Source of the DNA: Amia ocellicauda
Taxonomy: Eukaryota; Chordata; Actinopteri; Amiiformes; Amiidae
DNA length: 64,000 bases
Direction of reading: 5' to 3'
Assembly: GCF_036373705.1 (NCBI RefSeq)
Contig: NC_089851.1
Location: forward strand, 58,201,593-58,265,592
Each line of letters starts with the position of its first letter. The stretch's first letter is position 1. The translations under genes and the position numbers were made by a program. Of the stretch, positions 1 to 64,000 are shown piece after piece. Under the pieces are notes generated by a model that was not told where the DNA came from, made no database searches, and worked only from the letters and a program-made list of their open reading frames with translations.

Positions 1-47
1 CTCGCTTAGGGTGCGGGAGGTCCCGGGTTCAACTCCCGGACGAGCCC
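1..47 (+). tRNA. tRNA-Pro(AGG), 3' part, cut by window edge
   Basis: The anticodon arm, T-arm and 3' acceptor strand are visible. The anticodon loop reads TTAGGGT. One anticodon-stem base differs from the common copy (GCGGG instead of GCGAG), which still allows a wobble pair. The trailer is the canonical-unit type (GCTTGGCACTGC). Confidence 0.8.
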
Positions 48-194
48 GCTTGGCACTGCTTTGCGTTCTCTGAAGCATTCGTTTGTTCTCTCTCGATGCT
101 TGGCTTCTGGGCTCCTCTGCACCAGGGAGGTCTTTCAACCTCAGATACTGTTGGCTGTGTAGCTGATGGGAAATCAGACTGTCATCTGTGTGTT

Positions 195-302
195 TTGTTT
201 TCTTTAAAGAAAATGTGTTTTTTACAAGTTCGTTGTTGTTGTTGTTGTTGAGGAGGAGGAGGAGGACATGTAGTGTGTTGTTGAGGAGGAGGAGGACGAA
301 AT
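195..302 (+). repeat. Triplet tract typical of each unit, first example
   Basis: This is the first of the GTT/GAG tracts. Two blocks of the form GTTGTTGAGGAGGAGGAGGAC are separated by ATGTAGTGT, the first preceded by extra GTT copies. The tract is preceded by TTTTGTTTTCTTTAAAG, the first T-run downstream of each tRNA. Copy number of GTT (about 4-9) and of GAG/GTG triplets accounts for nearly all length differences among units, which is why spacings differ by multiples of three. Confidence 0.9.
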
Positions 303-562
303 GTGGTTTGCCGGCTTGTTATGGAGACCTTTGCTGAACGTGTACTCCTGAGCTGCACCAAAGGAGAGGCATTCTTTTCAGTTGTTTGCGGGCCTGCTGA
401 ACCATGCTCTCAGTGCTGTCTCACTGGGGATACGGTTACCGTTCTGGAAAGACACGTCAGCGCTACAGTCCATGCTATCAGTCAGTGAGCGTAGGTCTCC
501 CGGTCTGCCCCAAAGCAGTTACGCGCTTGCCCAGCAGAAACTGCGACACCCTCCGTTAACTT

Positions 563-634
563 GGCTCGTTGGTCTAGGGGTATGATTCTTGCTGAGGGTG
601 TGAGAGGCCCTGGGTTCAACTCCAGGACGAGCCC
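563..634 (+). pseudogene. tRNA-Pro-like, degenerate GAGGG form (reference copy)
   Basis: A 72-base cloverleaf. The acceptor stem (GGCTCGT with ACGAGCC) and D-arm match tRNA-Pro. The anticodon stem CTTGC/GTGAG pairs using two wobbles. The loop TGAGGGT puts AGG in the anticodon position but has G instead of the universal U at 33. The T-stem CTGGG/CCAGG has a G-A clash at 51/63; a shifted five-pair stem is possible with an 8-base loop. Both internal Pol III boxes (TGGTCTAGGGG and GGTTCAACTCC) are intact, so transcription is conceivable, but decoding is doubtful. Confidence 0.85.
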
Positions 635-1149
635 ACTTGGCCCCACTTTGCAGTCACCGAAGTGTTTGTTCGTTTGCTCTTGAAGGCTGGCTTCTGGGCT
701 CCTCTGCACAAGGGAGGGCTATCGACCTCAGATACTGTTGCCTGTAAAGCTGATGGGAAATCAGACTGTCATCTGTGTGTTTTGTTTTCTTTAAAGAAAA
801 TGTGTTTTTTACAAGTTCGTTGTTGTTGTTGTTGTTGAGGAGGAGGAGGAGGACATGTAGTGTGTTGTTGAGGAGGAGGAGGACGAAATGTGGTTTGCCG
901 GCTTGTTATGGAGACCTTTGCTGAACGTGTACTCCTGAGCTGCACCAAAGGAGAGGCATTCTTTTCAGTTGTTTGCGGGCCTGCTGAACCATGCTCTCAG
1001 TGCTGTCTCACTGGGGATTCGGTTACCGTTCTGGAAAGACACTTCAGCGCTACAGTCCATGCTATCAGTCAGTGAGCGTAGGTCTCCCGGTCTGCCCCAA
1101 AGCAGTTACGCGCTTGCCCAGCAGAAACTGCGACACCCTCCGTTAACTT

Positions 1150-1221
1150 GGCTCGTTGTTCTAGGGGTATGATTCTTGCTGAGGGTGTGAGAGGCCCTGG
1201 GTTCAACTCCAGGACGAGCCC
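1150..1221 (+). pseudogene. tRNA-Pro-like, GAGGG form with D-stem change
   Basis: Like the copy at 563, but base 10 is T (TTGTTCTAGGGG), which weakens the D-stem and the A box. Spacing to the next copy is 593. Confidence 0.85.
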
Positions 1222-1742
1222 ACTTGGCCCCACTTTGCAGTCACCGAAGTGTTTGTTCGTTTGCTCTTGAAGGCTGGCTTCTGGGCTCCTCTGCACAAGG
1301 GAGGGCTATCGACCTCAGATACTGTTGCCTGTATAGCTGATGGGAAATCAGACTGTCATCTGTGTGTTTTGTTTTCTTTAAAGAAAATGTGTTTTTTACA
1401 AGTTCGTTGTTGTTGTTGTTGTTGTTGTTGAGGAGGAGGTGGAGGACATGTAGTGTGTTGTTGAGGAGGAGGAGGACGAAATGTGGTTTGCCGGCTTGTT
1501 ATGGAGACCTTTGCTGAACGTGTACTCCTGAGCTGCACCAAAGGAGAGGCATTCTTTTCAGTTGTTTGCGGGCCTGCTGAACCATGCTCTCAGTGCTGTC
1601 TCACTGGGGATGGCGTTACCATTCTGGAAAGACACGTCAGCGCTACAGTCCATGCTATCAGTCAGTGAGCGTAGGTCTCCCGGTCTGCCCCAAAGCAGTT
1701 ACGCGCTTGCCCAGCAGAAACTGCGACACGCTCCGTTAACTT

Positions 1743-1814
1743 GGCTCGTTGGTCTAGGGGTATGATTCTTGCTGAGGTTGTGAGAGGCCCTGGGTTCAAC
1801 TCCAGGACGAGCCC
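1743..1814 (+). pseudogene. tRNA-Pro-like, GAGGTT form
   Basis: The anticodon loop reads TGAGGTT, so base 37 is T rather than the purine normal in tRNA-Pro. This marks the second degenerate subtype. Spacing to the next copy is 587. Confidence 0.85.
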
Positions 1815-2329
1815 ACTTGGCCCCACTTTGCAGTCACCGAAGTGTTTGTTCGTTTGCTCTTGAAGGCTGGCTTCTGGGCTCCTCTGCACAAGGGAGGGCT
1901 ATCGACCTCAGATACTGTTGCCTGTAAAGCTGATGGGAAATCAGACTGTCATCTGTGTGTTTTGTTTTCTTTAAAGAAAATGTGTTTTTTACAAGTTCGT
2001 TGTTGTTGTTGTTGTTGAGGAGGTGGAGGAGGACATGTAGTGTGTTGTTGAGGAGGAGGAGGACGAAATGTGGTTTGCCGGCTTGTTATGGAGACCTTTG
2101 CTGAACGTGTACTCCTGAGCTGCACCAAAGGAGAGGCATTCTTTTCAGTTGTTTGCGGGCCTGCTGAACCATGCTCTCAGTGCTGTCTCACTGGGGATAC
2201 GGTTACCGTTCTGGAAAGACACGTCAGCGCTACAGTCCATGCTATCAGTCAGTGAGCGTAGGTCTCCCGGTCTGCCCCAAAGCAGTTACGCGCTTGCCCA
2301 GCAGAAACTGCGACACGCTCCGTTAACTT

Positions 2330-2401
2330 GGCTCGTTGGTCTAGGGGTATGATTCTTGCTGAGGGTGTGAGAGGCCCTGGGTTCAACTCCAGGACGAGCC
2401 C
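2330..2401 (+). pseudogene. tRNA-Pro-like, GAGGG form
   Basis: Matches the 563 copy over the tRNA. The trailer has GTTTGTTTGTTTGC where most copies have GTTTGTTCGTTTGC. Spacing to the next copy is 593. Confidence 0.85.
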
Positions 2402-2922
2402 ACTTGGCCCCACTTTGCAGTCACCGAAGTGTTTGTTTGTTTGCTCTTGAAGGCTGGCTTCTGGGCTCCTCTGCACAAGGGAGGGCTATCGACCTCAGAT
2501 ACTGTTGCCCGTATAGCTGATGGGAAATCAGACTGTCATCTGTGTGTTTTGTTTTCTTTAAAGAAAATGTGTTTTTTACAAGTTCGTTGTTGTTGTTGTT
2601 GTTGTTGTTGAGGAGGAGGTGGAGGACATGTAGTGTGTTGTTGAGGAGGAGGAGGACGAAATGTGGTTTGCCGGCTTGTTATGGAGACCTTTGCTGAACG
2701 TGTACTCCTGAGCTGCACCAAAGGAGAGGCATTCTTTTCAGTTGTTTGCGGGCCTGCTGAACCATGCTCTCAGTGCTGTCTCACTGGGGATGGCGTTACC
2801 ATTCTGGAAAGACACGTCAGCGCTACAGTCCATGCTATCAGTCAGTGAGCGTAGGTCTCCCGGTCTGCCCCAAAGCAGTTACGCGCTTGCCCAGCAGAAA
2901 CTGCGACACCCTCCGTTAACTT

Positions 2923-2994
2923 GGCTCGTTGGTCTAGGGGTATGATTCTTGCTGAGGTTGTGAGAGGCCCTGGGTTCAACTCCAGGACGAGCCC
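2923..2994 (+). pseudogene. tRNA-Pro-like, GAGGTT form
   Basis: Loop TGAGGTT. Together with the next copy this forms an identical-type neighbouring pair 590 bases apart, suggesting a recent single-unit duplication. Confidence 0.85.
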
Positions 2995-3512
2995 ACTTGG
3001 CCCCACTTTGCAGTCACCGAAGTGTTTGTTCGTTTGCTCTTGAAGGCTGGCTTCTGGGCTCCTCTGCACAAGGGAGGGCTATCGACCTCAGATACTGTTG
3101 CCTGTAAAGCTGATGGGAAATCAGACTGTCATCTGTGTGTTTTGTTTTCTTTAAAGAAAATGTGTTTTTTACAAGTTCGTTGTTGTTGTTGTTGTTGTTG
3201 AGGAGGAGGTGGAGGACATGTAGTGTGTTGTTGAGGAGGAGGAGGACGAAATGTGGTTTGCCGGCTTGTTATGGAGACCTTTGCTGAACGTGTACTCCTG
3301 AGCTGCACCAAAGGAGAGGCATTCTTTTCAGTTGTTTGCGGGCCTGCTGAACCATGCTCTCAGTGCTGTCTCACTGGGGATGGCGTTACCATTCTGGAAA
3401 GACACGTCAGCGCTACAGTCCATGCTATCAGTCAGTGAGCGTAGGTCTCCCGGTCTGCCCCAAAGCAGTTACGCGCTTGCCCAGCAGAAACTGCGACACC
3501 CTCCGTTAACTT

Positions 3513-3584
3513 GGCTCGTTGGTCTAGGGGTATGATTCTTGCTGAGGTTGTGAGAGGCCCTGGGTTCAACTCCAGGACGAGCCC
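3513..3584 (+). pseudogene. tRNA-Pro-like, GAGGTT form
   Basis: Second member of the GAGGTT pair. It precedes a unit whose core ends CTGTGACATTGTCAGATAAC, the variant leader found only before UGG tRNAs. Confidence 0.85.
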
Positions 3585-4102
3585 ACTTGGCCCCACTTTG
3601 CAGTCACCGAAGTGTTTGTTCGTTTGCTCTTGAAGGCTGGCTTCTGGGCTCCTCTGCACAAGGGAGGGCTATCGACCTCAGATACTGTTGCCTGTAAAGC
3701 TGATGGGAAATCAGACTGTCATCTGTGTGTTTTGTTTTCTTTAAAGAAAATGTGTTTTTTACAAGTTCGTTGTTGTTGTTGTTGTTGAGGAGGAGGAGGA
3801 GGAGGACATGTAGTGTGTTGTTGAGGAGGAGGAGGACGAAATGTGGTTTGCCGGCTTGTTATGGAGACCTTTGCTGAACGTGTACTCCTGAGCTGCACCA
3901 AAGGAGAGGCATTCTTTTCAGTTGTTTGCGGGCCTGCTGAACAATGCTCTCAGTGCTGTCTCACTGGGGATGGCGTTACCATTCTGGAAAGACACGTCAG
4001 CGCTACAGTCCATGCTATCAGTCAGTGAGCGTAGGTCTCCCGGTCTGCCCCAAAGCAGTTACGCGCTTGCCCAGCAGAAACTGTGACATTGTCAGATAAC
4101 TT

Positions 4103-4174
4103 GGCTCGTTGGTCTAGGGGTATGATTCTCGCTTTGGGTGCGAGAGGTCCCGGGTTCAACTCCCGGACGAGCCC
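4103..4174 (+). tRNA. tRNA-Pro(UGG)
   Basis: Full-length cloverleaf: acceptor GGCTCGT/ACGAGCC, anticodon stem CTCGC/GCGAG, loop TTTGGGT (anticodon TGG), T-stem CCGGG/CCCGG, discriminator C. It has no intron, and both internal promoter boxes are intact. It closely resembles the vertebrate consensus for this tRNA. The CCA end is added after transcription, as usual in eukaryotes. The first T4 run downstream starts at 4320, 146 bases past the 3' end. Confidence 0.95.
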
Positions 4175-4680
4175 GCTTGGCCCTGCTTTGCATTCTCTGA
4201 AGCATTCGTTTGTTCTCTCTCGATGCTTGGCTTCTGGGCTCCTCTGCACCAGGGAGGTCTTTCAACCTCAGATACTGTTGGCTGTGTAGCTGATGGGAAA
4301 TCAGACTGTCATCTGTGTGTTTTGTTTTCTTTAAAGAAAATGTGTATTTTACAAGTTCGTTGTTGTTGTTGAGGAGGAGGAGGACATGTAGTGTGTTGTT
4401 GAGGAGGAGGAGGACGAAATGTGGTTTGCCGGCTTGTTATGGAGACCTTTGCTGAACGTGTACTCCTGAGCTGCACCAAAGGAGAGGCATTCTTTTCAGT
4501 TGTTTGCGGGCCTGCTGAACCATGCTCTCAGTGCTGTCTCACTGGGGATACGGTTACCGTACTGGAAAGACACTTCAGCGCTACAGTCCATGCTATCAGT
4601 CAGTGAGCGTAGGTCTCCCGGTCTGCCCCAAAGCAGTTACGCGCTTGCCCAGCAGAAACTGCGACACCCTCCGTTAACTT

Positions 4681-4752
4681 GGCTCGTTGGTCTAGGGGTA
4701 TGATTCTTGCTGAGGGTGTGAGAGGCCCTGGGTTCAACTCCAGGATGAGCCC
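4681..4752 (+). pseudogene. tRNA-Pro-like, GAGGG form, acceptor change
   Basis: Acceptor 3' strand is ATGAGCC instead of ACGAGCC, giving a G-U pair at 6/67. It directly follows the UGG copy at the short 578 spacing. Confidence 0.85.
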
Positions 4753-5258
4753 ACTTGGCCCCACTTTGCAGTCACCGAAGTGTTTGTTCGTTTGCTCTTG
4801 AAGGCTGGCTTCTTGGCTCCTCTGCACAAGGGAGGGCTATCGACCTCAGATACTGTTGCCTGTAAAGCTGATGGGAAATCAGACTGTCATCTGTGTGTTT
4901 TGTTTTCTTTAAAGAAAATGTGTTTTTTACAAGTTCGTTGTTGTTGTTGAGGAGGAGGAGGACATGTAGTGTGTTGTTGAGGAGGAGGAGGACGAAATGT
5001 GGTTTGCCGGCTTGTTATGGAGACCTTTGCTGAACGTGTACTCCTGAGCTGCACCAAAGGAGAGGCATTCTTTTCAGTTGTTTGCGGGCCTGCTGAACCA
5101 TGCTCTCAGTGCTGTCTCACTGGGGATACGGTTACCGTTCTGGAAAGACACTTCAGCGCTACAGTCCATGCTATCAGTCAGTGAGCGTAGGTCTCCCGGT
5201 CTGCCCCAAAGCAGTTACGCGCTTGCCCAGCAGAAACTGCGACACCCTCCGTTAACTT

Positions 5259-5330
5259 GGCTAGTTGGTCTAGGGGTATGATTCTTGTTGAGGGTGTGAG
5301 AGGCCCTGGGTTCAACTCCAGGACGAGCCC
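5259..5330 (+). pseudogene. tRNA-Pro-like, GAGGG form, two extra changes
   Basis: Acceptor GGCTAGT breaks the pair at 5/68, and the anticodon stem reads CTTGT, turning the last pair into U-G. It is among the most degraded full-length copies of array 1. The following unit has the longest spacing seen (596) because of extra GTT triplets. Confidence 0.85.
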
Positions 5331-5854
5331 ACTTGGCCCCACTTTGCAGTCACCGAAGTGTTTGTTCGTTTGCTCTTGAAGGCTGGCTTCTGGGCTCCTC
5401 TGCACAAGGGAGGGCTATCGACCTCAGATACTGTTGCCCGTATAGCTGATGGGAAATCAGACTGTCATCTGTGTGTTTTGTTTTCTTTAAAGAAAATGTG
5501 TTTTTTACAAGTTCGTTGTTGTTGTTGTTGTTGTTGTTGTTGAGGAGGAGGAGGAGGACATGTAGTGTGTTGTTGAGGAGGAGGAGGACGAAATGTGGTT
5601 TGCCGGCTTGTTATGGAGACCTTTGCTGAACGTGTACTCCTGAGCTGCACCAAAGGAGAGGCATTCTTTTCAGTTGTTTGCGGGCCTGCTGAACCATGCT
5701 CTCAGTGCTGTCTCACTGGGGATGGCGTTACCATTCTGGAAAGACACGTCAGCGCTACAGTCCATGCTATCAGTCAGTGAGCGTAGGTCTCCCGGTCTGC
5801 CCCAAAGCAGTTACGCGCTTGCCCAGCAGAAACTGCGACACCCTCCGTTAACTT

Positions 5855-5926
5855 GGCTCGTTGGTCTAGGGGTATGATTCTTGCTGAGGTTGTGAGAGGC
5901 CCTGGGTTCAACTCCAGGACGAGCCC
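5855..5926 (+). pseudogene. tRNA-Pro-like, GAGGTT form
   Basis: Loop TGAGGTT. The triplet tract that follows has a GAGGAGGAGGTGG pattern, a marker shared with the 8209, 9392, 12339 and 14115 units. Confidence 0.85.
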
Positions 5927-6444
5927 ACTTGGCCCCACTTTGCAGTCACCGAAGTGTTTGTTCGTTTGCTCTTGAAGGCTGGCTTCTGGGCTCCTCTGCA
6001 CAAGGGAGGGCTATCGACCTCAGATACTGTTGCCTGTAAAGCTGATGGGAAATCAGACTGTCATCTGTGTGTTTTGTTTTCTTTAAAGAAAATGTGTTTT
6101 TTACAAGTTCGTTGTTGTTGTTGTTGTTGAGGAGGAGGAGGTGGAGGACATGTAGTGTGTTGTTGAGGAGGAGGAGGACGAAATGTGGTTTGCCGGCTTG
6201 TTATGGAGACCTTTGCTGAACGTGTACTCCTGAGCTGCACCAAAGGAGAGGCATTCTTTTCAGTTGTTTGCGGGCCTGCTGAACCATGCTCTCAGTGCTG
6301 TCTCACTGGGGATACGGTTACCGTTCTGGAAAGACACGTCAGCGCTACAGTCCATGCTATCAGTCAGTGAGCGTAGGTCTCCCGGTCTGCCCCAAAGCAG
6401 TTACGCGCTTGCCCAGCAGAAACTGCGACACTCTCCGTTAACTT

Positions 6445-6516
6445 GGCTCGTTGGTCTAGGGGTATGATTCTTGCTGAGGGTGTGAGAGGCCCTGGGTTCA
6501 ACTCCAGGACGAGCCC
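6445..6516 (+). pseudogene. tRNA-Pro-like, GAGGG form
   Basis: The core just upstream reads CGACACTCTCCG instead of CGACACCCTCCG, a marker shared only with the 10575 copy. Both lie immediately before a UGG unit, so they belong to one duplicated block. Confidence 0.85.
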
Positions 6517-7037
6517 ACTTGGCCCCACTTTGCAGTCACCGAAGTGTTTGTTCGTTTGCTCTTGAAGGCTGGCTTCTGGGCTCCTCTGCACAAGGGAGGG
6601 CTATCGACCTCAGATACTGTTGCCTGTAAAGCTGATGGGAAATCAGACTGTCATCTGTGTGTTTTGTTTTCTTTAAAGAAAATGTGTTTTTTACAAGTTC
6701 GTTGTTGTTGTTGTTGTTGTTGTTGAGGAGGAGGTGGAGGACATGTAGTGTGTTGTTGAGGAGGAGGAGGACGAAATGTGGTTTGCCGGCTTGTTATGGA
6801 GACCTTTGCTGAACGTGTACTCCTGAGCTGCACCAAAGGAGAGGCATTCTTTTCAGTTGTTTGCGGGCCTGCTGAACCATGCTCTCAGTGCTGTCTCACT
6901 GGGGATGGCGTTACCATTCTGGAAAGACACGTCAGCGCTACAGTCCATGCTATCAGTCAGTGAGCGTAGGTCTCCCGGTCTGCCCCAAAGCAGTTACGCG
7001 CTTGCCCAGCAGAAACTGTGACACTGTCAGATAACTT

Positions 7038-7109
7038 GGCTCGTTGGTCTAGGGGTATGATTCTCGCTTTGGGTGCGAGAGGTCCCGGGTTCAACTCCCG
7101 GACGAGCCC
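7038..7109 (+). tRNA. tRNA-Pro(UGG)
   Basis: Identical over the tRNA to the copy at 4103, including the CTGTCAGATAAC leader just upstream. It opens a seven-unit block that recurs from 11168. Confidence 0.95.
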
Positions 7110-7615
7110 GCTTGGCCCTGCTTTGCATTCTCTGAAGCATTCGTTTGTTCTCTCTCGATGCTTGGCTTCTGGGCTCCTCTGCACCAGGGAGGTCTTTCAA
7201 CCTCAGATACTGTTGGCTGTGTAGCTGATGGGAAATCAGACTGTCATCTGTGTGTTTTGTTTTCTTTAAAGAAAATGTGTATTTTACAAGTTCGTTGTTG
7301 TTGTTGAGGAGGAGGAGGACATGTAGTGTGTTGTTGAGGAGGAGGAGGACGAAATGTGGTTTGCCGGCTTGTTATGGAGACCTTTGCTGAACGTGTACTC
7401 CTGAGCTGCACCAAAGGAGAGGCATTCTTTTCAGTTGTTTGCGGGCCTGCTGAACCATGCTCTCAGTGCTGTCTCACTGGGGATACGGTTACCGTTCTGG
7501 AAAGACACGTCAGCGCTACAGTCCATGCTATCAGTCAGTGAGCGTAGGTCTCCCGGTCTGCCCCAAAGCAGTTACGCGCTTGCCCAGCAGAAACTGCAAC
7601 ACCCTCCGTTAACTT

Positions 7616-7687
7616 GGCTCGTTGGTCTAGGGGTATGATTCTTGCTGAGGGTGTGAGAGGCCCTGGGTTCAACTCCAGGACGAGCCC
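7616..7687 (+). pseudogene. tRNA-Pro-like, GAGGG form
   Basis: Upstream marker CTGCAACACC and trailer marker GAAGTCTTTG are shared with the 8799 and 11746 copies. Confidence 0.85.
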
Positions 7688-8208
7688 ACTTGGCCCCACT
7701 TTGCAGTCACCGAAGTCTTTGTTCGTTTGCTCTTGAAGGCTGGCTTCTGGGCTCCTCTGCACAAGAGAGGGCTATCGACCTCAGATACTGTTGCCCGTAT
7801 AGCTGATGGGAAATCAGACTGTCATCTGTGTGTTTTGTTTTCTTTAAAGAAAATGTGTTTTTTACAAGTTCGTTGTTGTTGTTGTTGTTGTTGTTGAGGA
7901 GGAGGTGGAGGACATGTAGTGTGTTGTTGAGGAGGAGGAGGACGAAATGTGGTTTGCCGGCTTGTTATGGAGACCTTTGCTGAACGTGTACTCCTGAGCT
8001 GCACCAAAGGAGAGGCATTCTTTTCAGTTGTTTGCGGGCCTGCTGAACCATGCTCTCAGTGCTGTCTCACTGGGGATGGCGTTACCATTCTGGAAAGACA
8101 CGTCAGCGCTACAGTCCATGCTATCAGTCAGTGAGCGTAGGTCTCCCGGTCTGCCCCAAAGCAGTTACGCGCTTGCCCAGCAGAAACTGCGACACCCTCC
8201 GTTAACTT

Positions 8209-8280
8209 GGCTCGTTGGTCTAGGGGTATGATTCTTGCTGAGGTTGTGAGAGGCCCTGGGTTCAACTCCAGGACGAGCCA
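8209..8280 (+). pseudogene. tRNA-Pro-like, GAGGTT form, A at 73
   Basis: Loop TGAGGTT. The discriminator base is A (GAGCCA) instead of C. The same double change occurs at 9392, 12339 and 14115. Confidence 0.85.
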
Positions 8281-8798
8281 ACTTGGCCCCACTTTGCAGT
8301 CACCGAAGTGTTTGTTCGTTTGCTCTTGAAGGCTGGCTTCTGGGCTCCTCTGCACAAGGGAGGGCTATCGACCTCAGATACTGTTGCCTGTAAAGCTGAT
8401 GGGAAATCAGACTGTCATCTGTGTGTTTTGTTTTCTTTAAAGAAAATGTGTTTTTTACAAGTTCGTTGTTGTTGTTGTTGTTGAGGAGGAGGAGGTGGAG
8501 GACATGTAGTGTGTTGTTGAGGAGGAGGAGGACGAAATGTGGTTTGCCGGCTTGTTATGGAGACCTTTGCTGAACGTGTACTCCTGAGCTGCACCAAAGG
8601 AGAGGCATTCTTTTCAGTTGTTTGCGGGCCTGCTGAACCATGCTCTCAGTGCTGTCTCACTGGGGATACGGTTACCGTTCTGGAAAGACACGTCAGCGCT
8701 ACAGTCCATGCTATCAGTCAGTGAGCGTAGGTCTCCCGGTCTGCCCCAAAGCAGTTACGCGCTTGCCCAGCAGAAACTGCAACACCCTCCGTTAACTT

Positions 8799-8870
8799 GG
8801 CTCGTTGGTCTAGGGGTATGATTCTTGCTGAGGGTGTGAGAGGCCCTGGGTTCAACTCCAGGACGAGCCC
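8799..8870 (+). pseudogene. tRNA-Pro-like, GAGGG form
   Basis: Same CTGCAACACC and GAAGTCTTTG markers as the 7616 copy, 1183 bases away: the two-unit block 7616/8209 is duplicated as 8799/9392. Confidence 0.85.
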
Positions 8871-9391
8871 ACTTGGCCCCACTTTGCAGTCACCGAAGTC
8901 TTTGTTCGTTTGCTCTTGAAGGCTGGCTTCTGGGCTCCTCTGCACAAGAGAGGGCTATCGACCTCAGATACTGTTGCCCGTATAGCTGATGGGAAATCAG
9001 ACTGTCATCTGTGTGTTTTGTTTTCTTTAAAGAAAATGTGTTTTTTACAAGTTCGTTGTTGTTGTTGTTGTTGTTGTTGAGGAGGAGGTGGAGGACATGT
9101 AGTGTGTTGTTGAGGAGGAGGAGGACGAAATGTGGTTTGCCGGCTTGTTATGGAGACCTTTGCTGAACGTGTACTCCTGAGCTGCACCAAAGGAGAGGCA
9201 TTCTTTTCAGTTGTTTGCGGGCCTGCTGAACCATGCTCTCAGTGCTGTCTCACTGGGGATGGCGTTACCATTCTGGAAAGACACGTCAGCGCTACAGTCC
9301 ATGCTATCAGTCAGTGAGCGTAGGTCTCCCGGTCTGCCCCAAAGCAGTTACGCGCTTGCCCAGCAGAAACTGCGACACCCTCCGTTAACTT

Positions 9392-9463
9392 GGCTCGTTG
9401 GTCTAGGGGTATGATTCTTGCTGAGGTTGTGAGAGGCCCTGGGTTCAACTCCAGGACGAGCCA
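9392..9463 (+). pseudogene. tRNA-Pro-like, GAGGTT form, A at 73
   Basis: Partner of the 8799 copy in the duplicated dimer; same sequence as the 8209 copy. Confidence 0.85.
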
Positions 9464-9981
9464 ACTTGGCCCCACTTTGCAGTCACCGAAGTGTTTGTTC
9501 GTTTGCTCTTGAAGGCTGGCTTCTGGGCTCCTCTGCACAAGGGAGGGCTATCGACCTCAGATACTGTTGCCTGTAAAGCTGATGGGAAATCAGACTGTCA
9601 TCTGTGTGTTTTGTTTTCTTTAAAGAAAATGTGTTTTTTACAAGTTCGTTGTTGTTGTTGTTGTTGAGGAGGAGGAGGTGGAGGACATGTAGTGTGTTGT
9701 TGAGGAGGAGGAGGACGAAATGTGGTTTGCCGGCTTGTTATGGAGACCTTTGCTGAACGTGTACTCCTGAGCTGCACCAAAGGAGAGGCATTCTTTTCAG
9801 TTGTTTGCGGGCCTGCTGAACCATGCTCTCAGTGCTGTCTCACTGGGGATACGGTTACCGTTCTGGAAAGACACGTCAGCGCTACAGTCCATGCTATCAG
9901 TCAGTGAGCGTAGGTCTCCCGGTCTGCCCCAAAGCAGTTACGCGCTTGCCCAGCAGAAACTGCGACACCCTCCGTTAACTT

Positions 9982-23966: not shown

Positions 23967-24005
<39 letters not shown>

Positions 24006-46040: not shown

Positions 46041-46044
46041 ACCA

Positions 46045-54344: not shown

Positions 54345-54850
54345 ACTTGGCCCCACTTTGTAGTCACCGAAGTGTTTGTTCGTTTGCTCTTGAAGGCTGG
54401 CTTCTGGGCTCCTCTGCACAAGGGAGGGCTATCGACCTCAGATACTGTTGGCTGTGTAGCTGATGGGAAATCAGACTGTCATCTGAGTGTTTTGTTTTCT
54501 TTAAAGAAAATGTGTATTTTACTAGTTCGTTGTTGTTGTTGAGGAGGAGGAGGACATGTAGTGTGTTGTTGAGGAGGAGGAGGACGAAATGTGGTTTGCC
54601 GGCTTGTTATGGAGACCTTTGCTGAACGTGTACTCCTGAGCTGCACCAAAGGAGAGGCATTCTTTTCAGTTGTTTGCGGGCCTGCTGAACCATGCTCTCA
54701 GTGCTGTCTCACTGGGGATACGGTTACCGTTCTGGAAAGACACTTCAGCGCTACAGTCCATGCTATCAGTCAGTGAGCGTAGGTCTCCCGGTCTGCCCCA
54801 AAGCAGTTACGCGCTTGCCCAGCAGAAACTGCGACACCCTCCGTTAACTT

Positions 54851-54922
54851 GGCTCGTTGGTCTAGGGGTATGATTCTCGCTTAGGGTGCGAGAGGTCCCG
54901 GGTTCAACTCCCGGACGAGCCC
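54851..54922 (+). tRNA. tRNA-Pro(AGG)
   Basis: Canonical over all 72 bases. The trailer starts GCTTGGCACTGC, a marker shared with the copies at base 1, 57184, 59928, 61084 and 63420. Confidence 0.95.
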
Positions 54923-55428
54923 GCTTGGCACTGCTTTGCATTCTCTGAAGCATTCGTTTGTTCTCTCTCGATGCTTGGCTTCTGGGCTCCTCTGCACCAG
55001 GGAGGTCTTTCAACCTCAGATACTGTTGGCTGTATAGCTGATGGGAAATCAGACTGTCATCTGTGTGTTTTGTTTTCTTTAAAGAAAATGTGTATTTTAC
55101 AAGTTCGTTGTTGTTGTTGAGGAGGAGGAGGACATGTAGTGTGTTGTTGAGGAGGAGGAGGACGAAATGTGGTTTGCCGGCTTGTTATGGAGACCTTTGC
55201 TGAACGTGTACTCCTGAGCTGCACCAAAGGAGAGGCATTCTTTTCAGTTGTTTGCGGGCCTGCTGAACCATGCTCTCAGTGCTGTCTCACTGGGGATACG
55301 GTTACCGTTCTGGAAAGACACTTCAGCGCTACAGTCCATGCTATCAGTCAGTGTGCGTAGGTCTCCCGGTCTGCCCCAAAGCAGTTACGCGCTTGCCCAG
55401 CAGAAACTGCGACACCCTCCGTTAACTT

Positions 55429-55500
55429 GGCTCGTTGGTCTAGGGGTATGATTCTTGCTGAGGGTGTGAGAGGCCCTGGGTTCAACTCCAGGACGAGCCC
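55429..55500 (+). pseudogene. tRNA-Pro-like, GAGGG form
   Basis: Standard degenerate form. The unit body has GCTGATTGGAAATC, unique in the window. Confidence 0.85.
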
Positions 55501-56015
55501 ACTTGGCCCCACTTTGTAGTCACCGAAGTGTTCGTTCGTTTGCTCTTGAAGGCTGGCTTCTGGGCTCCTCTGCACAAGGGAGGGCTATCGACCTCAGATA
55601 CTGTTGGCTGTATAGCTGATTGGAAATCAGACTGTCATCTGTGTGTTTTGTTTTCTTTAAAGAAAATGTGTTTTTTACAAGTTCGTTGTTGTTGTTGTTG
55701 TTGAGGAGGAGGAGGAGGACATGTAGTGTGTTGTTGAGGAGGAGGAGGACGAAATGTGGTTTGCCGGCTTGTTATGGAGACCTTTGCTGAACGTGTACTC
55801 CTGAGCTGCACCAAAGGAGAGGCATTCTTTTCAGTTGTTTGCGGGCCTGCTGAACCATGCTCTCAGTGCTGTCTCACTGGGGATACGGTTACCGTTCTGG
55901 AAAGACACTTCAGCGCTACAGTCCATGCTATCAGTCAGTGAGCGTAGGTCTCCCGGTCTGCCCCAAAGCAGTTACGCGCTTGCCCAGCAGAAACTGCGAC
56001 ACCCTCCGTTAACTT

Positions 56016-56087
56016 GGCTCGTTGGTCTAGGGGTATGATTCTTGCTGAGGGTGTGAGAGGCCCTAGGTTCAACTCCAGGACGAGCCC
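56016..56087 (+). pseudogene. tRNA-Pro-like, GAGGG form with CTAGG T-stem
   Basis: The T-stem 5' strand is CTAGG instead of CTGGG, which also weakens the alternative shifted pairing. This subtype is found only in array 2. Confidence 0.85.
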
Positions 56088-56605
56088 ACTTGGCCCCACT
56101 TTGTAGTCACCGAAGTGTTCGTTCGTTTGCTCTTGAAGGCTGGCTTCTGGGCTCCTCTGCACAAGGGAGGGCTATCGACCTCAGATACTGTTGGCTGTAT
56201 AGCTGATGGGAAATCAGACTGTCATCTGTGTGTTTTGTTTTCTTTAAAGAAAATGTGTTTTTTACAAGTTCGTTGTTGTTGTTGTTGTTGTTGAGGAGGA
56301 GGAGGAGGACATTAAGTGTGTTGTTGAGGAGGAGGAGGACGAAATGTGGTTTGCCGGCTTGTTATGGAGTCCTTTGCTGAACGTGTACTCCTGAGCTGCA
56401 CCAAAGGAGAGGCATTCTTTTCAGTTGTTTGCGGGCCTGCTGAACCATGCTCTCAGTGCTGTCTCACTGGGGATACGGTTACCGTTCTGGAAAGACACTT
56501 CAGCGCTACAGTCCATGCTATCAGTCAGTGTGCGTAGGTCTCCCGGTCTGCCCCAAAGCAGTTACGCGCTTGCCCAGCAGAAACTGCGACACCCTCCGTT
56601 AACTT

Positions 56606-56677
56606 GGCTCGTTGGTCTAGGGGTATGATTCTCGCTGAGGGTGTGAGAGGCCCTGGGTTCAACTCCAGGACGAGCCC
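56606..56677 (+). pseudogene. tRNA-Pro-like, GAGGG loop with CTCGC stem
   Basis: Hybrid form as at 54273. The core before it carries ACATTAAGTG and GGAGTCCTTTG markers that recur at 59235-59290 and 62545-62605. Confidence 0.85.
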
Positions 56678-57183
56678 ACTTGGCCCCACTTTGTAGTCAC
56701 CGAAGTGTTTGTTCGTTTGCTCTTGAAGGCTGGCTTCTGGGCTCCTCTGCACAAGGGAGGGCTATCGACCTCAGATACTGTTGGCTGTGTAGCTGATGGG
56801 AAATCAGACTGTCATCTGAGTGTTTTGTTTTCTTTAAAGAAAATGTGTATTTTACTAGTTCGTTGTTGTTGTTGAGGAGGAGGAGGACATGTAGTGTGTT
56901 GTTGAGGAGGAGGAGGACGAAATGTGGTTTGCCGGCTTGTTATGGAGACCTTTGCTGAACGTGTACTCCTGAGCTGCACCAAAGGAGAGGCATTCTTTTC
57001 AGTTGTTTGCGGGCCTGCTGAACCATGCTCTCAGTGCTGTCTCACTGGGGATACGGTTACCGTTCTGGAAAGACACTTCAGCGCTACAGTCCATGCTATC
57101 AGTCAGTGAGCGTAGGTCTCCCGGTCTGCCCCAAAGCAGTTACGCGCTTGCCCAGCAGAAACTGCGACACCCTCCGTTAACTT

Positions 57184-57255
57184 GGCTCGTTGGTCTAGGG
57201 GTATGATTCTCGCTTAGGGTGCGAGAGGTCCCGGGTTCAACTCCCGGACGAGCCC
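57184..57255 (+). tRNA. tRNA-Pro(AGG)
   Basis: Canonical over all 72 bases, 2333 bases after the 54851 copy; it opens another multi-unit block. Confidence 0.95.
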
Positions 57256-57761
57256 GCTTGGCACTGCTTTGCATTCTCTGAAGCATTCGTTTGTTCTCTC
57301 TCGATGCTTGGCTTCTGGGCTCCTCTGCACCAGGGAGGTCTTTCAACCTCAGATACTGTTGGCTGTATAGCTGATGGGAAATCAGACTGTCATCTGTGTG
57401 TTTTGTTTTCTTTAAAGAAAATGTGTATTTTACAAGTTCGTTGTTGTTGTTGAGGAGGAGGAGGACATGTAGTGTGTTGTTGAGGAGGAGGAGGACGAAA
57501 TGTGGTTTGCCGGCTTGTTATGGAGACCTTTGCTGAACGTGTACTCCTGAGCTGCACCAAAGGAGAGGCATTCTTTTCAGTTGTTTGCGGGCCTGCTGAA
57601 CCATGCTCTCAGTGCTGTCTCACTGGGGATACGGTTACCGTTCTGGAAAGACACTTCAGCGCTACAGTCCATGCTATCAGTCAGTGTGCGTAGGTCTCCC
57701 GGTCTGCCCCAAAGCAGTTACGCGCTTGCCCAGCAGAAACTGCGACACCCTCCGTTAACTT

Positions 57762-57833
57762 GGCTCGTTGGTCTAGGGGTATGATTCTTGCTGAGGGTGT
57801 GAGAGGCCCTGGGTTCAACTCCAGGACGAGCCC
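57762..57833 (+). pseudogene. tRNA-Pro-like, GAGGG form
   Basis: Standard degenerate form, first of three consecutive degenerate copies. Confidence 0.85.
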
Positions 57834-58351
57834 ACTTGGCCCCACTTTGTAGTCACCGAAGTGTTCGTTCGTTTGCTCTTGAAGGCTGGCTTCTGGGCTC
57901 CTCTGCACAAGGGAGGGCTATCGACCTCAGATACTGTTGGCTGTATAGCTGATGGGAAATCAGACTGTCATCTGTGTGTTTTGTTTTCTTTAAAGAAAAT
58001 GTGTTTTTTACAAGTTCGTTGTTGTTGTTGTTGTTGTTGAGGAGGAGGAGGAGGACATGTAGTGTGTTGTTGAGGAGGAGGAGGACGAAATGTGGTTTGC
58101 CGGCTTGTTATGGAGACCTTTGCTGAACGTGTACTCCTGAGCTGCACCAAAGGAGAGGCATTCTTTTCAGTTGTTTGCGGGCCTGCTGAACCATGCTCTC
58201 AGTGCTGTCTCACTGGGGATACGGTTACCGTTCTGGAAAGACACTTCAGCGCTACAGTCCATGCTATCAGTCAGTGAGCGTAGGTCTCCCGGTCTGCCCC
58301 AAAGCAGTTACGCGCTTGCCCAGCAGAAACTGCGACACCCTCCGTTAACTT

Positions 58352-58423
58352 GGCTCGTTGGTCTAGGGGTATGATTCTTGCTGAGGGTGTGAGAGGCCCT
58401 AGGTTCAACTCCAGGACGAGCCC
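58352..58423 (+). pseudogene. tRNA-Pro-like, CTAGG T-stem subtype
   Basis: Identical in type to the next copy, 587 bases on, indicating a one-unit duplication. Confidence 0.85.
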
Positions 58424-58938
58424 ACTTGGCCCCACTTTGTAGTCACCGAAGTGTTCGTTCGTTTGCTCTTGAAGGCTGGCTTCTGGGCTCCTCTGCACAA
58501 GGGAGGGCTATCGACCTCAGATACTGTTGGCTGTATAGCTGATGGGAAATCAGACTGTCATCTGTGTGTTTTGTTTTCTTTAAAGAAAATGTGTTTTTTA
58601 CAAGTTCGTTGTTGTTGTTGTTGTTGAGGAGGAGGAGGAGGACATGTAGTGTGTTGTTGAGGAGGAGGAGGACGAAATGTGGTTTGCCGGCTTGTTATGG
58701 AGACCTTTGCTGAACGTGTACTCCTGAGCTGCACCAAAGGAGAGGCATTCTTTTCAGTTGTTTGCGGGCCTGCTGAACCATGCTCTCAGTGCTGTCTCAC
58801 TGGGGATACGGTTACCGTTCTGGAAAGACACTTCAGCGCTACAGTCCATGCTATCAGTCAGTGAGCGTAGGTCTCCCGGTCTGCCCCAAAGCAGTTACGC
58901 GCTTGCCCAGCAGAAACTGCGACACCCTCCGTTAACTT

Positions 58939-59010
58939 GGCTCGTTGGTCTAGGGGTATGATTCTTGCTGAGGGTGTGAGAGGCCCTAGGTTCAACTCCA
59001 GGACGAGCCC
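58939..59010 (+). pseudogene. tRNA-Pro-like, CTAGG T-stem subtype
   Basis: Duplicate of the 58352 unit; the following tract carries the ACATTAAGTG marker. Confidence 0.85.
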
Positions 59011-59528
59011 ACTTGGCCCCACTTTGTAGTCACCGAAGTGTTCGTTCGTTTGCTCTTGAAGGCTGGCTTCTGGGCTCCTCTGCACAAGGGAGGGCTATCG
59101 ACCTCAGATACTGTTGGCTGTATAGCTGATGGGAAATCAGACTGTCATCTGTGTGTTTTGTTTTCTTTAAAGAAAATGTGTTTTTTACAAGTTCGTTGTT
59201 GTTGTTGTTGTTGTTGAGGAGGAGGAGGAGGACATTAAGTGTGTTGTTGAGGAGGAGGAGGACGAAATGTGGTTTGCCGGCTTGTTATGGAGTCCTTTGC
59301 TGAACGTGTACTCCTGAGCTGCACCAAAGGAGAGGCATTCTTTTCAGTTGTTTGCGGGCCTGCTGAACCATGCTCTCAGTGCTGTCTCACTGGGGATACG
59401 GTTACCGTTCTGGAAAGACACTTCAGCGCTACAGTCCATGCTATCAGTCAGTGTGCGTAGGTCTCCCGGTCTGCCCCAAAGCAGTTACGCGCTTGCCCAG
59501 CAGAAACTGCGACACCCTCCGTTAACTT

Positions 59529-59546
59529 GGCTCGTTGGTCTAGGGG
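59529..59546 (+). pseudogene. tRNA-Pro-like 5' stub at a deletion joint
   Basis: Only the first 18 bases of the tRNA remain (to CTAGGGG), joined directly to ATCAGACTGTCATCTGAG. By comparison with the 56606 unit, 179 bases are lost; the 399-base spacing to the next tRNA (578 minus 179) agrees exactly. Confidence 0.9.
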
Positions 59547-59927
59547 ATCAGACTGTCATCTGAGTGTTTTGTTTTCTTTAAAGAAAATGTGTATTTTACT
59601 AGTTCGTTGTTGTTGTTGAGGAGGAGGAGGACATGTAGTGTGTTGTTGAGGAGGAGGAGGACGAAATGTGGTTTGCCGGCTTGTTATGGAGACCTTTGCT
59701 GAACGTGTACTCCTGAGCTGCACCAAAGGAGAGGCATTCTTTTCAGTTGTTTGCGGGCCTGCTGAACCATGCTCTCAGTGCTGTCTCACTGGGGATACGG
59801 TTACCGTTCTGGAAAGACACTTCAGCGCTACAGTCCATGCTATCAGTCAGTGAGCGTAGGTCTCCCGGTCTGCCCCAAAGCAGTTACGCGCTTGCCCAGC
59901 AGAAACTGCGACACCCTCCGTTAACTT

Positions 59928-59999
59928 GGCTCGTTGGTCTAGGGGTATGATTCTCGCTTAGGGTGCGAGAGGTCCCGGGTTCAACTCCCGGACGAGCCC
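59928..59999 (+). tRNA. tRNA-Pro(AGG)
   Basis: Canonical over all 72 bases; first full tRNA after the deletion. Confidence 0.95.
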
Positions 60000-60505
60000 G
60001 CTTGGCACTGCTTTGCATTCTCTGAAGCATTCGTTTGTTCTCTCTCGATGCTTGGCTTCTGGGCTCCTCTGCACCAGGGAGGTCTTTCAACCTCAGATAC
60101 TGTTGGCTGTATAGCTGATGGGAAATCAGACTGTCATCTGTGTGTTTTGTTTTCTTTAAAGAAAATGTGTATTTTACAAGTTCGTTGTTGTTGTTGAGGA
60201 GGAGGAGGACATGTAGTGTGTTGTTGAGGAGGAGGAGGACGAAATGTGGTTTGCCGGCTTGTTATGGAGACCTTTGCTGAACGTGTACTCCTGAGCTGCA
60301 CCAAAGGAGAGGCATTCTTTTCAGTTGTTTGCGGGCCTGCTGAACCATGCTCTCAGTGCTGTCTCACTGGGGATACGGTTACCGTTCTGGAAAGACACTT
60401 CAGCGCTACAGTCCATGCTATCAGTCAGTGAGCGTAGGTCTCCCGGTCTGCCCCAAAGCAGTTACGCGCTTGCCCAGCAGAAACTGCGACACCCTCCGTT
60501 AACTT

Positions 60506-60577
60506 GGCTCGTTGGTCTAGGGGTATGATTCTTGCTGAGGGTGTGAGAGGCCCTAGGTTCAACTCCAGGACGAGCCC
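60506..60577 (+). pseudogene. tRNA-Pro-like, CTAGG T-stem subtype
   Basis: Here the CTAGG subtype is followed by the ATCTGAGTG/ACTAGTTCG body normally found after the CTCGC hybrids: a recombinant unit. Confidence 0.85.
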
Positions 60578-61083
60578 ACTTGGCCCCACTTTGTAGTCAC
60601 CGAAGTGTTCGTTCGTTTGCTCTTGAAGGCTGGCTTCTGGGCTCCTCTGCACAAGGGAGGGCTATCGACCTCAGATACTGTTGGCTGTGTAGCTGATGGG
60701 AAATCAGACTGTCATCTGAGTGTTTTGTTTTCTTTAAAGAAAATGTGTATTTTACTAGTTCGTTGTTGTTGTTGAGGAGGAGGAGGACATGTAGTGTGTT
60801 GTTGAGGAGGAGGAGGACGAAATGTGGTTTGCCGGCTTGTTATGGAGACCTTTGCTGAACGTGTACTCCTGAGCTGCACCAAAGGAGAGGCATTCTTTTC
60901 AGTTGTTTGCGGGCCTGCTGAACCATGCTCTCAGTGCTGTCTCACTGGGGATACGGTTACCGTTCTGGAAAGACACTTCAGCGCTACAGTCCATGCTATC
61001 AGTCAGTGAGCGTAGGTCTCCCGGTCTGCCCCAAAGCAGTTACGCGCTTGCCCAGCAGAAACTGCGACACCCTCCGTTAACTT

Positions 61084-61155
61084 GGCTCGTTGGTCTAGGG
61101 GTATGATTCTCGCTTAGGGTGCGAGAGGTCCCGGGTTCAACTCCCGGACGAGCCC
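61084..61155 (+). tRNA. tRNA-Pro(AGG)
   Basis: Canonical over all 72 bases. It starts a four-unit block matching the one at 54851. Confidence 0.95.
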
Positions 61156-61661
61156 GCTTGGCACTGCTTTGCATTCTCTGAAGCATTCGTTTGTTCTCTC
61201 TCGATGCTTGGCTTCTGGGCTCCTCTGCACCAGGGAGGTCTTTCAACCTCAGATACTGTTGGCTGTATAGCTGATGGGAAATCAGACTGTCATCTGTGTG
61301 TTTTGTTTTCTTTAAAGAAAATGTGTATTTTACAAGTTCGTTGTTGTTGTTGAGGAGGAGGAGGACATGTAGTGTGTTGTTGAGGAGGAGGAGGACGAAA
61401 TGTGGTTTGCCGGCTTGTTATGGAGACCTTTGCTGAACGTGTACTCCTGAGCTGCACCAAAGGAGAGGCATTCTTTTCAGTTGTTTGCGGGCCTGCTGAA
61501 CCATGCTCTCAGTGCTGTCTCACTGGGGATACGGTTACCGTTCTGGAAAGACACTTCAGCGCTACAGTCCATGCTATCAGTCAGTGTGCGTAGGTCTCCC
61601 GGTCTGCCCCAAAGCAGTTACGCGCTTGCCCAGCAGAAACTGCGACACCCTCCGTTAACTT

Positions 61662-61733
61662 GGCTCGTTGGTCTAGGGGTATGATTCTTGCTGAGGGTGT
61701 GAGAGGCCCTGGGTTCAACTCCAGGACGAGCCC
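61662..61733 (+). pseudogene. tRNA-Pro-like, GAGGG form
   Basis: Counterpart of the 55429 copy in the recurring block. Confidence 0.85.
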
Positions 61734-62251
61734 ACTTGGCCCCACTTTGTAGTCACCGAAGTGTTCGTTCGTTTGCTCTTGAAGGCTGGCTTCTGGGCTC
61801 CTCTGCACAAGGGAGGGCTATCGACCTCAGATACTGTTGGCTGTATAGCTGATGGGAAATCAGACTGTCATCTGTGTGTTTTGTTTTCTTTAAAGAAAAT
61901 GTGTTTTTTACAAGTTCGTTGTTGTTGTTGTTGTTGTTGAGGAGGAGGAGGAGGACATGTAGTGTGTTGTTGAGGAGGAGGAGGACGAAATGTGGTTTGC
62001 CGGCTTGTTATGGAGACCTTTGCTGAACGTGTACTCCTGAGCTGCACCAAAGGAGAGGCATTCTTTTCAGTTGTTTGCGGGCCTGCTGAACCATGCTCTC
62101 AGTGCTGTCTCACTGGGGATACGGTTACCGTTCTGGAAAGACACTTCAGCGCTACAGTCCATGCTATCAGTCAGTGAGCGTAGGTCTCCCGGTCTGCCCC
62201 AAAGCAGTTACGCGCTTGCCCAGCAGAAACTGCGACACCCTCCGTTAACTT

Positions 62252-62323
62252 GGCTCGTTGGTCTAGGGGTATGATTCTTGCTGAGGGTGTGAGAGGCCCT
62301 AGGTTCAACTCCAGGACGAGCCC
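62252..62323 (+). pseudogene. tRNA-Pro-like, CTAGG T-stem subtype
   Basis: Counterpart of the 56016 copy. Confidence 0.85.
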
Positions 62324-62841
62324 ACTTGGCCCCACTTTGTAGTCACCGAAGTGTTCGTTCGTTTGCTCTTGAAGGCTGGCTTCTGGGCTCCTCTGCACAA
62401 GGGAGGGCTATCGACCTCAGATACTGTTGGCTGTATAGCTGATGGGAAATCAGACTGTCATCTGTGTGTTTTGTTTTCTTTAAAGAAAATGTGTTTTTTA
62501 CAAGTTCGTTGTTGTTGTTGTTGTTGTTGAGGAGGAGGAGGAGGACATTAAGTGTGTTGTTGAGGAGGAGGAGGACGAAATGTGGTTTGCCGGCTTGTTA
62601 TGGAGTCCTTTGCTGAACGTGTACTCCTGAGCTGCACCAAAGGAGAGGCATTCTTTTCAGTTGTTTGCGGGCCTGCTGAACCATGCTCTCAGTGCTGTCT
62701 CACTGGGGATACGGTTACCGTTCTGGAAAGACACTTCAGCGCTACAGTCCATGCTATCAGTCAGTGTGCGTAGGTCTCCCGGTCTGCCCCAAAGCAGTTA
62801 CGCGCTTGCCCAGCAGAAACTGCGACACCCTCCGTTAACTT

Positions 62842-62913
62842 GGCTCGTTGGTCTAGGGGTATGATTCTCGCTGAGGGTGTGAGAGGCCCTGGGTTCAACT
62901 CCAGGACGAGCCC
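62842..62913 (+). pseudogene. tRNA-Pro-like, GAGGG loop with CTCGC stem
   Basis: Counterpart of the 56606 copy, with the same ATCTGAGTG/ACTAGTTCG body downstream. Confidence 0.85.
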
Positions 62914-63419
62914 ACTTGGCCCCACTTTGTAGTCACCGAAGTGTTTGTTCGTTTGCTCTTGAAGGCTGGCTTCTGGGCTCCTCTGCACAAGGGAGGGCTA
63001 TCGACCTCAGATACTGTTGGCTGTGTAGCTGATGGGAAATCAGACTGTCATCTGAGTGTTTTGTTTTCTTTAAAGAAAATGTGTATTTTACTAGTTCGTT
63101 GTTGTTGTTGAGGAGGAGGAGGACATGTAGTGTGTTGTTGAGGAGGAGGAGGACGAAATGTGGTTTGCCGGCTTGTTATGGAGACCTTTGCTGAACGTGT
63201 ACTCCTGAGCTGCACCAAAGGAGAGGCATTCTTTTCAGTTGTTTGCGGGCCTGCTGAACCATGCTCTCAGTGCTGTCTCACTGGGGATACGGTTACCGTT
63301 CTGGAAAGACACTTCAGCGCTACAGTCCATGCTATCAGTCAGTGAGCGTAGGTCTCCCGGTCTGCCCCAAAGCAGTTACGCGCTTGCCCAGCAGAAACTG
63401 CGACACCCTCCGTTAACTT

Positions 63420-63491
63420 GGCTCGTTGGTCTAGGGGTATGATTCTCGCTTAGGGTGCGAGAGGTCCCGGGTTCAACTCCCGGACGAGCCC
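63420..63491 (+). tRNA. tRNA-Pro(AGG)
   Basis: Canonical over all 72 bases; last complete tRNA in the window. Confidence 0.95.
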
Positions 63492-64000
63492 GCTTGGCAC
63501 TGCTTTGCATTCTCTGAAGCATTCGTTTGTTCTCTCTCGATGCTTGGCTTCTGGGCTCCTCTGCACCAGGGAGGTCTTTCAACCTCAGATACTGTTGGCT
63601 GTATAGCTGATGGGAAATCAGACTGTCATCTGTGTGTTTTGTTTTCTTTAAAGAAAATGTGTATTTTACAAGTTCGTTGTTGTTGTTGAGGAGGAGGAGG
63701 ACATGTAGTGTGTTGTTGAGGAGGAGGAGGACGAAATGTGGTTTGCCGGCTTGTTATGGAGACCTTTGCTGAACGTGTACTCCTGAGCTGCACCAAAGGA
63801 GAGGCATTCTTTTCAGTTGTTTGCGGGCCTGCTGAACCATGCTCTCAGTGCTGTCTCACTGGGGATACGGTTACCGTTCTGGAAAGACACTTCAGCGCTA
63901 CAGTCCATGCTATCAGTCAGTGTGCGTAGGTCTCCCGGTCTGCCCCAAAGCAGTTACGCGCTTGCCCAGCAGAAACTGCGACACCCTCCGTTAACTTGGC

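Follow-up and report, generated by a model that had tools for sequence, protein, structure and literature searches.

What is a 64-kb stretch of DNA in which one unit of about 580 bases, each with a proline tRNA (tRNA-Pro) or a close relative of it inside, is repeated dozens of times: a satellite that carries an RNA polymerase III (Pol III) gene along, or an array of tRNA genes? The stretch in question, hereafter the window, lies in Amia ocellicauda on contig NC_089851.1 (C2; 58201593-58265592, or 58.20-58.27 Mb), which is 63.6 Mb long in a genome of 988 Mb and 385 contigs. Our answer, which we hold with a probability of roughly 0.6, is that the window belongs to a very large array of tRNA-Pro genes with the evolutionary behaviour of a satellite, and that its units fall into two classes with a shared spacer, of which class A would supply proline tRNA and class B would hitch-hike.

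The preliminary description of the window claimed two same-strand arrays of a unit of about 580 bases, filling nearly 34 kb of the 64 kb, and this layout stands. BLAST of one class A and one class B unit against the window returned head-to-tail forward-strand copies at 1-19436 and 49607-63997, which amounts to 33.8 kb of array DNA (19.4 + 14.4), and ARAGORN called 58 tRNA genes, 56 of them on the forward strand in two blocks and 2 on the reverse strand. With the partial units (1-562, 18800-19202, 19195-19436 and 59547-59927) set aside, 55 full units were used, 31 in the left array and 24 in the right. They are 578-596 bp long, represent 41 distinct sequences, eight of which recur, and all point in one direction, the parallel orientation of teleost tRNA arrays. 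Both arrays extend to the ends of the window, and the right one runs at least 10 kb further. The arrays and their example units are as follows.

1-19436, forward: left array, 31 full units (563-18799) and three partial ones, from BLAST and unit cutting
563-18799, forward: class order of the full left units, BBBBBBABBBBABBBBBBABBBBBBBABBAB
49607-64000, forward: right array, 24 full units and one partial (59547-59927), extending beyond the window (sample L043)
49607-64000, forward: class order of the full right units, AABABABABABBBABBBABABBBA
4103-4680, forward: example class A unit of 578 bp, tRNA-Pro with anticodon TGG at 4103-4174, then trailer and spacer; Rfam 54.7 bits
50188-50765, forward: example class A unit with anticodon AGG, tRNA at 50188-50259; Rfam 52 bits
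4681-5258, forward: example class B unit of 578 bp, tRNA-like part at 4681-4752 with loop TGAGGGT (G33), called Leu-GAG by ARAGORN and without an Rfam match at the gathering score
4130-4286, forward: class-distinguishing block (unit positions 28-184) in unit 4103-4680, from sequence comparison of the classes
4320-4323, forward: predicted Pol III terminator, the first run of four T (T4) past the tRNA of unit 4103-4680, at +146

The two classes are interspersed in both arrays, with 15 of the 55 full units in class A and 40 in class B. Class A units carry an intact tRNA-Pro gene, and each of the 15 reaches the Rfam tRNA family RF00005 at 44-55 bits. Their anticodon loop reads TTTGGGT in five units, all in the left array, and TTAGGGT in ten, all in the right, giving the anticodon TGG in 5/5 full left units and AGG in 10/10 full right units; one array is thus not a plain copy of the other. 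Class B units have the loop TGAGGGT (30 units) or TGAGGTT (10), with G33 in 40/40 and an in-register anticodon triplet that is still AGG. In standard tRNA numbering, the class B sequences have substitutions at 29 and 40 after which the anticodon stem still pairs there as G-U, whereas the T-stem pair 50-64 becomes U-G and 51-63 becomes G-A (the latter in the class consensus), so that the T-stem is not fully paired.

At the Rfam gathering score 17 tRNAs were found in the window: all 15 full units of class A, the truncated class A unit that starts at 18800, and one tRNA-Leu at 24276. No class B unit (0/40) reached that score, and a laxer search of 49900-51400, which contains one B unit, matched no B unit up to E = 1. 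ARAGORN labels many of the class B copies tRNA-Leu GAG; since alignment to class A shows the loop TGAGGGT to hold the anticodon AGG behind a G33, and Rfam accepts no B unit at its gathering score, we reject this label. The earlier characterization of the tRNAs as mostly degenerate therefore gives way to two discrete, homogenised classes, the majority being a second fixed variant.

To compare the classes we used 134 units from seven sub-arrays: the 55 of the window and 79 full units from five 10-kb stretches picked for dense pattern matches (L043-L047; 79 of 91 unit matches were kept, and 12 cut or rearranged ones dropped). Class A accounts for 48 of these, with U33 kept in 48/48, and class B for 86. 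One class A unit in L046 has the loop TTTTGGT and hence a glutamine anticodon (TTG) in a proline body.

Within sub-arrays, the A-B difference is 18.9% at unit positions 28-184 and only 1.58% in the rest of the unit (from which a trinucleotide tract at 244-300 is excluded), where differences within a class are 0.82% for A and 1.19% for B and the smallest single A-B difference is 0. Measured in steps of 24 bases, net A-B divergence is close to zero at 1-24 and 193-240, lies at 0.04-0.27 across 25-192, and is small (0.01-0.02) near 241-288, 433-480 and 553-576. Among window units, substitution columns that distinguish the classes number 28/157 in the block and 2/364 in the rest (Fisher P 1e-13, a descriptive value since the units are related). 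A tree of the block with 134 tips requires 1 class change (shuffled minimum 31), and the corresponding tree of the rest requires 21 (shuffled mean 39.9, minimum 33). Over 22 diagnostic sites none of the 134 units is a block-level recombinant between A and B, and 10/134 carry one or two stray diagnostic sites. The block spans most of the predicted Pol III transcript, and the spacer is nearly homogenised across the classes. A separate conserved core of about 300 bases, as first proposed, does not emerge from this comparison, in which the unit is near-uniform between classes mostly everywhere outside 28-184, the first 24 tRNA bases included. A linked four-site variant (GGC and A) at unit positions 448-457 occurs in 17/26 B units of the left array and is not what most right-array units carry; it is apparently a small conversion tract.

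Besides their head-to-tail order, the units bear marks of concerted evolution. Multi-unit segments as long as 2,080 bp are repeated identically 1.2-8.6 kb apart, which indicates unequal exchange, and the two trees carry sub-array signal, needing 39 and 45 changes where shuffling never gave fewer than 79 and 80. The classes also alternate more often than expected: over the seven sub-arrays there are 87 class switches against 61.3 +/- 5.1 after shuffling, with 0/10,000 shuffles as high, and the arrays of the window have 26 between them where 20.1 are expected (P 0.02); for this test, end pieces that contain the block were labelled by best match and those without it were left out. We read the exchange between classes as confined mainly to the spacer.

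Units at the low-coordinate edge of the listed cluster (C2 51.25-51.43 Mb) are diverged, at about 85-97% identity to the A or B consensus, and mix the states of the two classes. Over 24 diagnostic sites, five units of edge sample L039 have 13-15 A and 8-11 B states, two units of L009 have 18 A and 6 B, and three further L009 units and one of L011 have 1-5 A and 18-22 B. Some L039 units have the anticodon CGG. A comparable unit persists inside the island between the window arrays.

45726-46049, reverse: diverged old relic, a trailer/spacer piece and then a tRNA-Pro-like body, called Thr-AGT by ARAGORN and without an Rfam gathering match

The tRNA part of this relic is mostly A-like (4 A, 1 B) and its trailer is mixed (6 A, 8 B). 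Because both edge units and relic are mixed in this way, A and B look like lineages sorted from mixed ancestors, which suggests that they diverged inside this unit family. Given these intermediates, there is no need to invoke a foreign source for the B block. In the same edge sample L039, two reverse-strand units derived from tRNA-Pro (1-464 and 2115-2661; Rfam 34 bits) carry a leucine anticodon (CAG) in a proline body.

The genome search, copy count and chromosome mapping were run with exact tRNA-core patterns, which found 1,601 cores, consisting of 1,126 B, 148 A with TGG and 327 A with AGG; the same patterns read backwards gave 0 matches genome-wide, so that the array feature is not a product of chance. 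At 584 bp per unit, 1,601 units would make up 0.94 Mb. The patterns recovered 73/86 B and 37/48 A sampled units, and since they miss some, true copy numbers should exceed 1,601. All of the matches listed, about 100 per pattern in contig order, sit on C2, and places beyond those listed may be elsewhere. A 32-base unit pattern had 0 matches in viral contigs and prokaryote genome contigs. The TGG copies listed (100/148), all on C2, comprise 91/106 reverse-strand matches at 51.25-55.25 Mb and 9/42 forward-strand matches from 57.71 Mb, and the orientation of the cluster seems to flip across a central stretch of C2 51.25-58.3 Mb.

Three 10-kb samples from gaps between sub-arrays (L060, L061 and L062; C2 53.0, 55.6 and 56.5 Mb) consist mostly of a conventional, ATCT-rich satellite of 142-150 bp, and two of them contain N; this satellite region is possibly centromeric or heterochromatic. 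One of the three, L062, also holds Asn and Thr tRNA cassettes spaced about 4 kb apart. The proposal that the locus behaves as a satellite with a Pol III gene inside thus survives in its first half, given the 1,601 exact cores, the head-to-tail order, the long multi-unit identities and the satellite-filled gaps. It needs amending in that the locus is also a tRNA gene array, with class A making up 15/55 units in the window and 48/134 in the sample.

The promoter and terminator signals of the array differ in their condition. The array-majority A box is exact in 127/134 units and the B box in 131/134, both being exact in 48/48 class A units; in class B the A box is exact in 79/86 and the B box in 83/86. 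On the other hand, the first T4 past the tRNA falls at +146 or +147 in 134/134 array units, so the array genes would end at unconventional signals or give transcripts with long trailers. Dispersed tRNA-Pro copies belong to a distinct isodecoder, with a T-loop reading CAAATCC rather than the CAACTCC of the array (among the CAACTCC matches listed, all are on C2). Only 6 exact copies of the CAAATCC form exist, on C7 and C25, and in 6/6 the first T4 lies at +2 to +13; one of them (L054) has a broken 5' half and receives no ARAGORN call. Some of the diverged edge units have an earlier T4 as well, at +34 to +102.

Taken together, these observations are consistent with the following account. A copies may supply proline tRNA, most likely in the germline, by analogy with zebrafish, in which array-encoded tRNAs appear to do so, and B copies would be a pseudogene class that hitch-hikes through unequal crossing-over of multi-unit blocks. 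Gene conversion would keep the A and B spacers alike, and the blocks, at about 19% mismatch, may have stopped recombining through heteroduplex rejection, so that two versions persist side by side.

Several observations weigh against this account. No T4 occurs within 145 nt of the tRNA in 134/134 units, which is unusual and speaks against efficient tRNA production. The rest of the unit is not wholly free of class signal, with its 21 changes against about 40 in shuffles, and the left window array, taken by itself, has 10 class switches where 8.3 are expected (P 0.30), so that its alternation is within chance. Selection on class A has only a weak sign in its favour from the variation test described below, and the heteroduplex-rejection step is one that we infer. 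Finally, scored matches to 5S genes fall on C8 and on small contigs and none on C2 (47 of 47,274 candidates scored), which leaves equivalence to the 5S-bearing block of zebrafish chromosome 4 not shown.

The alternative that fares best, although we consider it unlikely, is that the entire array is inert, untranscribed satellite DNA whose class A tRNAs are kept only through homogenisation. The absence of a nearby terminator and the 142-150 bp satellite that fills most of the gap samples agree with it, as would methylation of the array, with which the CpG observed/expected ratios of 0.53 and 0.57 would fit; a study of pike describes dense methylation of clustered 5S genes (PMC5437419). The island, however, has a lower ratio still (0.44), so the array values are not special, and class A keeps U33 and both boxes in 48/48 units. 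At equal sample size, moreover, A tRNA bodies have 9 variable columns against a mean of 13.9 for B, with 1% of 300 subsamples as low, whereas trailers (A 23, B 19.1) and spacers (22 and 23.0) show no such reduction. We take this as a weak sign of selection on class A tRNA bodies.

It is rather improbable that class B represents a functional Pol III gene in its own right, producing a non-decoding RNA with a tRNA-like head that is kept separate by selection on the transcript. Such a gene would account for the uniformity of B (block differences of 1.4% within and 2.6% between sub-arrays), its excess over A (1,126 against 475 exact cores), its mostly exact boxes and the restriction of the class difference to most of the predicted transcript and almost none of the spacer. 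Minimum-energy folding is ambiguous in this respect. None of five 72-mers gave a cloverleaf, their shapes being rod-like; compared with shuffles, folding was somewhat better for the three from class B (z -2.05 to -2.33) and less so for the two from class A (z -1.36 and -1.44), but the predicted 222-nt transcripts of the two classes showed no advantage (z 0.01 for A, 0.47 for B). The tRNA-like part of B is also more variable than its spacer (19/72 against 29/278 variable columns) and than A at equal sample size, and an A-box change is common to 6/8 B units of L047.

Lower again in our estimation is a two-transcript Pol III locus, in which one spacer and promoter head would serve two cassettes, a decoding tRNA-Pro and a non-decoding, tRNA-headed RNA of about 222 nt, each shielded from the gene conversion that evens out the remainder of the unit. 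If this were true, a new family of germline non-coding RNAs would have arisen within a tRNA array, in the form of class B. That the unit is an amplified tRNA-derived SINE is very improbable: its anatomy fits (A and B boxes within a tRNA-like head, a body unrelated to tRNA and a distant T-run), and SINE-derived satellites are reported in reptiles (PMC10702118), but the copies form an in-register, head-to-tail series in which the tRNA always occupies the same position, the exact-pattern matches listed are all on C2, and class A is an intact tRNA-Pro.

Returning to the tRNA gene array that evolves as a satellite, its closest known counterparts are the tRNA clusters of teleosts. In zebrafish 65% and in stickleback 87% of tRNA genes and pseudogenes are clustered (PMC2888827). 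Zebrafish isodecoders of eggs and early embryos lie in repetitive regions, those that rise later being scattered (PMC11417395), and most zebrafish tRNA genes lie in Region-2 of chromosome 4 together with maternal 5S genes and the satellite MOSAT-2, although the authors state that maternal expression of the Region-2 tRNAs has not yet been studied (PMC11075544). The zebrafish (chromosome 4 long arm) and stickleback clusters resemble the Amia array in very high copy number, almost all neighbours being parallel, in a setting rich in repeats and satellites with other tRNA types nearby (here Asn and Thr), and in few dispersed canonical copies (PMC2888827, PMC11417395, PMC11075544). By this analogy the Amia locus is probably a teleost-type, germline-related tRNA array. 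What stands out in the Amia array is that most units are of one fixed, non-canonical kind, together with the two-class mosaic at 28-184 and the lack of a nearby terminator.

The 5S rDNA of pike (Esox) shares the massive tandem amplification of a Pol III gene and blocks of mixed unit types, but in pike the gene is reported to be uniform and the spacers more varied (PMC5437419). In Amia this usual pattern of repeated gene arrays, a uniform gene with drifting spacers, is reversed: the spacer is near-uniform and gene and trailer come in two versions 19% apart, in more than 1,000 copies. The locus thus amounts to a clear natural experiment on divergence as a barrier to gene conversion in a tandem array, with intermediates preserved in the edge units.

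Tandem satellites with tRNA-related parts are known as well. The OAX satellite of Xenopus has an internal tRNA-like Pol III promoter and is not known to carry an intact tRNA gene in its unit. SINE-derived satellites of squamates (PMC10702118) and tRNA-containing satellites of Harttia catfish (PMC11955569) are alike in their tandem repeats; here, by comparison, 48/134 units retain a tRNA-Pro gene with U33 and both boxes. A literature search over titles and abstract openings, with few subscription journals and no supplements, found no fish tRNA-Pro array with a two-class structure. Arrays of tRNA genes as such are already known; what deserves follow-up is that the two-class mosaic is limited to the gene and that no terminator lies close to the tRNA. 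The array also has a bearing on the abundance of tRNA genes in fish. Since the majority of its copies are something other than standard decoding tRNAs, a bare gene count can be misleading, and prediction software can give such copies the wrong identity, as the Leu-GAG calls illustrate.

The two window arrays flank an island of about 30 kb, which had been described as rich in transposons and proves to be so. Ten of its 33 open frames were searched in Pfam; five gave a family and five none. The features of the island and its edges are as follows.

18800-19436, forward: ragged end of the left array, where a class A unit breaks off at 388 and is followed by part of a class B unit (its positions 14-255)
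23598-35784, no strand assigned: Polinton/Maverick-like element of 12,187 bp, with inverted ends that begin AG and end CT and near-identical 6-bp flanks CATCAG/CATAAG
42148-42543, reverse: reverse transcriptase piece (RVT_1, Pfam)
48499-49050, reverse: DDE_3 transposase piece (Pfam)
49510-49606, forward: diverged lead-in of the right array, resembling the spacer end of the unit, from alignment; start approximate

The island is unlikely to have entered one array in a single event, as the left side stops at unit position 255 and the right side opens with the diverged lead-in and unit position 1. A search with short SINE motifs gave one match, GCATGTTCTCCC at 47257 on the reverse strand. The Polinton-like element encodes an integrase core, a chromo domain and DNA_pol_B_2 in separate reading frames and has long inverted ends with subterminal tandem repeats. 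The tRNA-Leu (TAA) at 24276-24358 on the reverse strand (Rfam 46.7) lies just inside the inverted end of this element.

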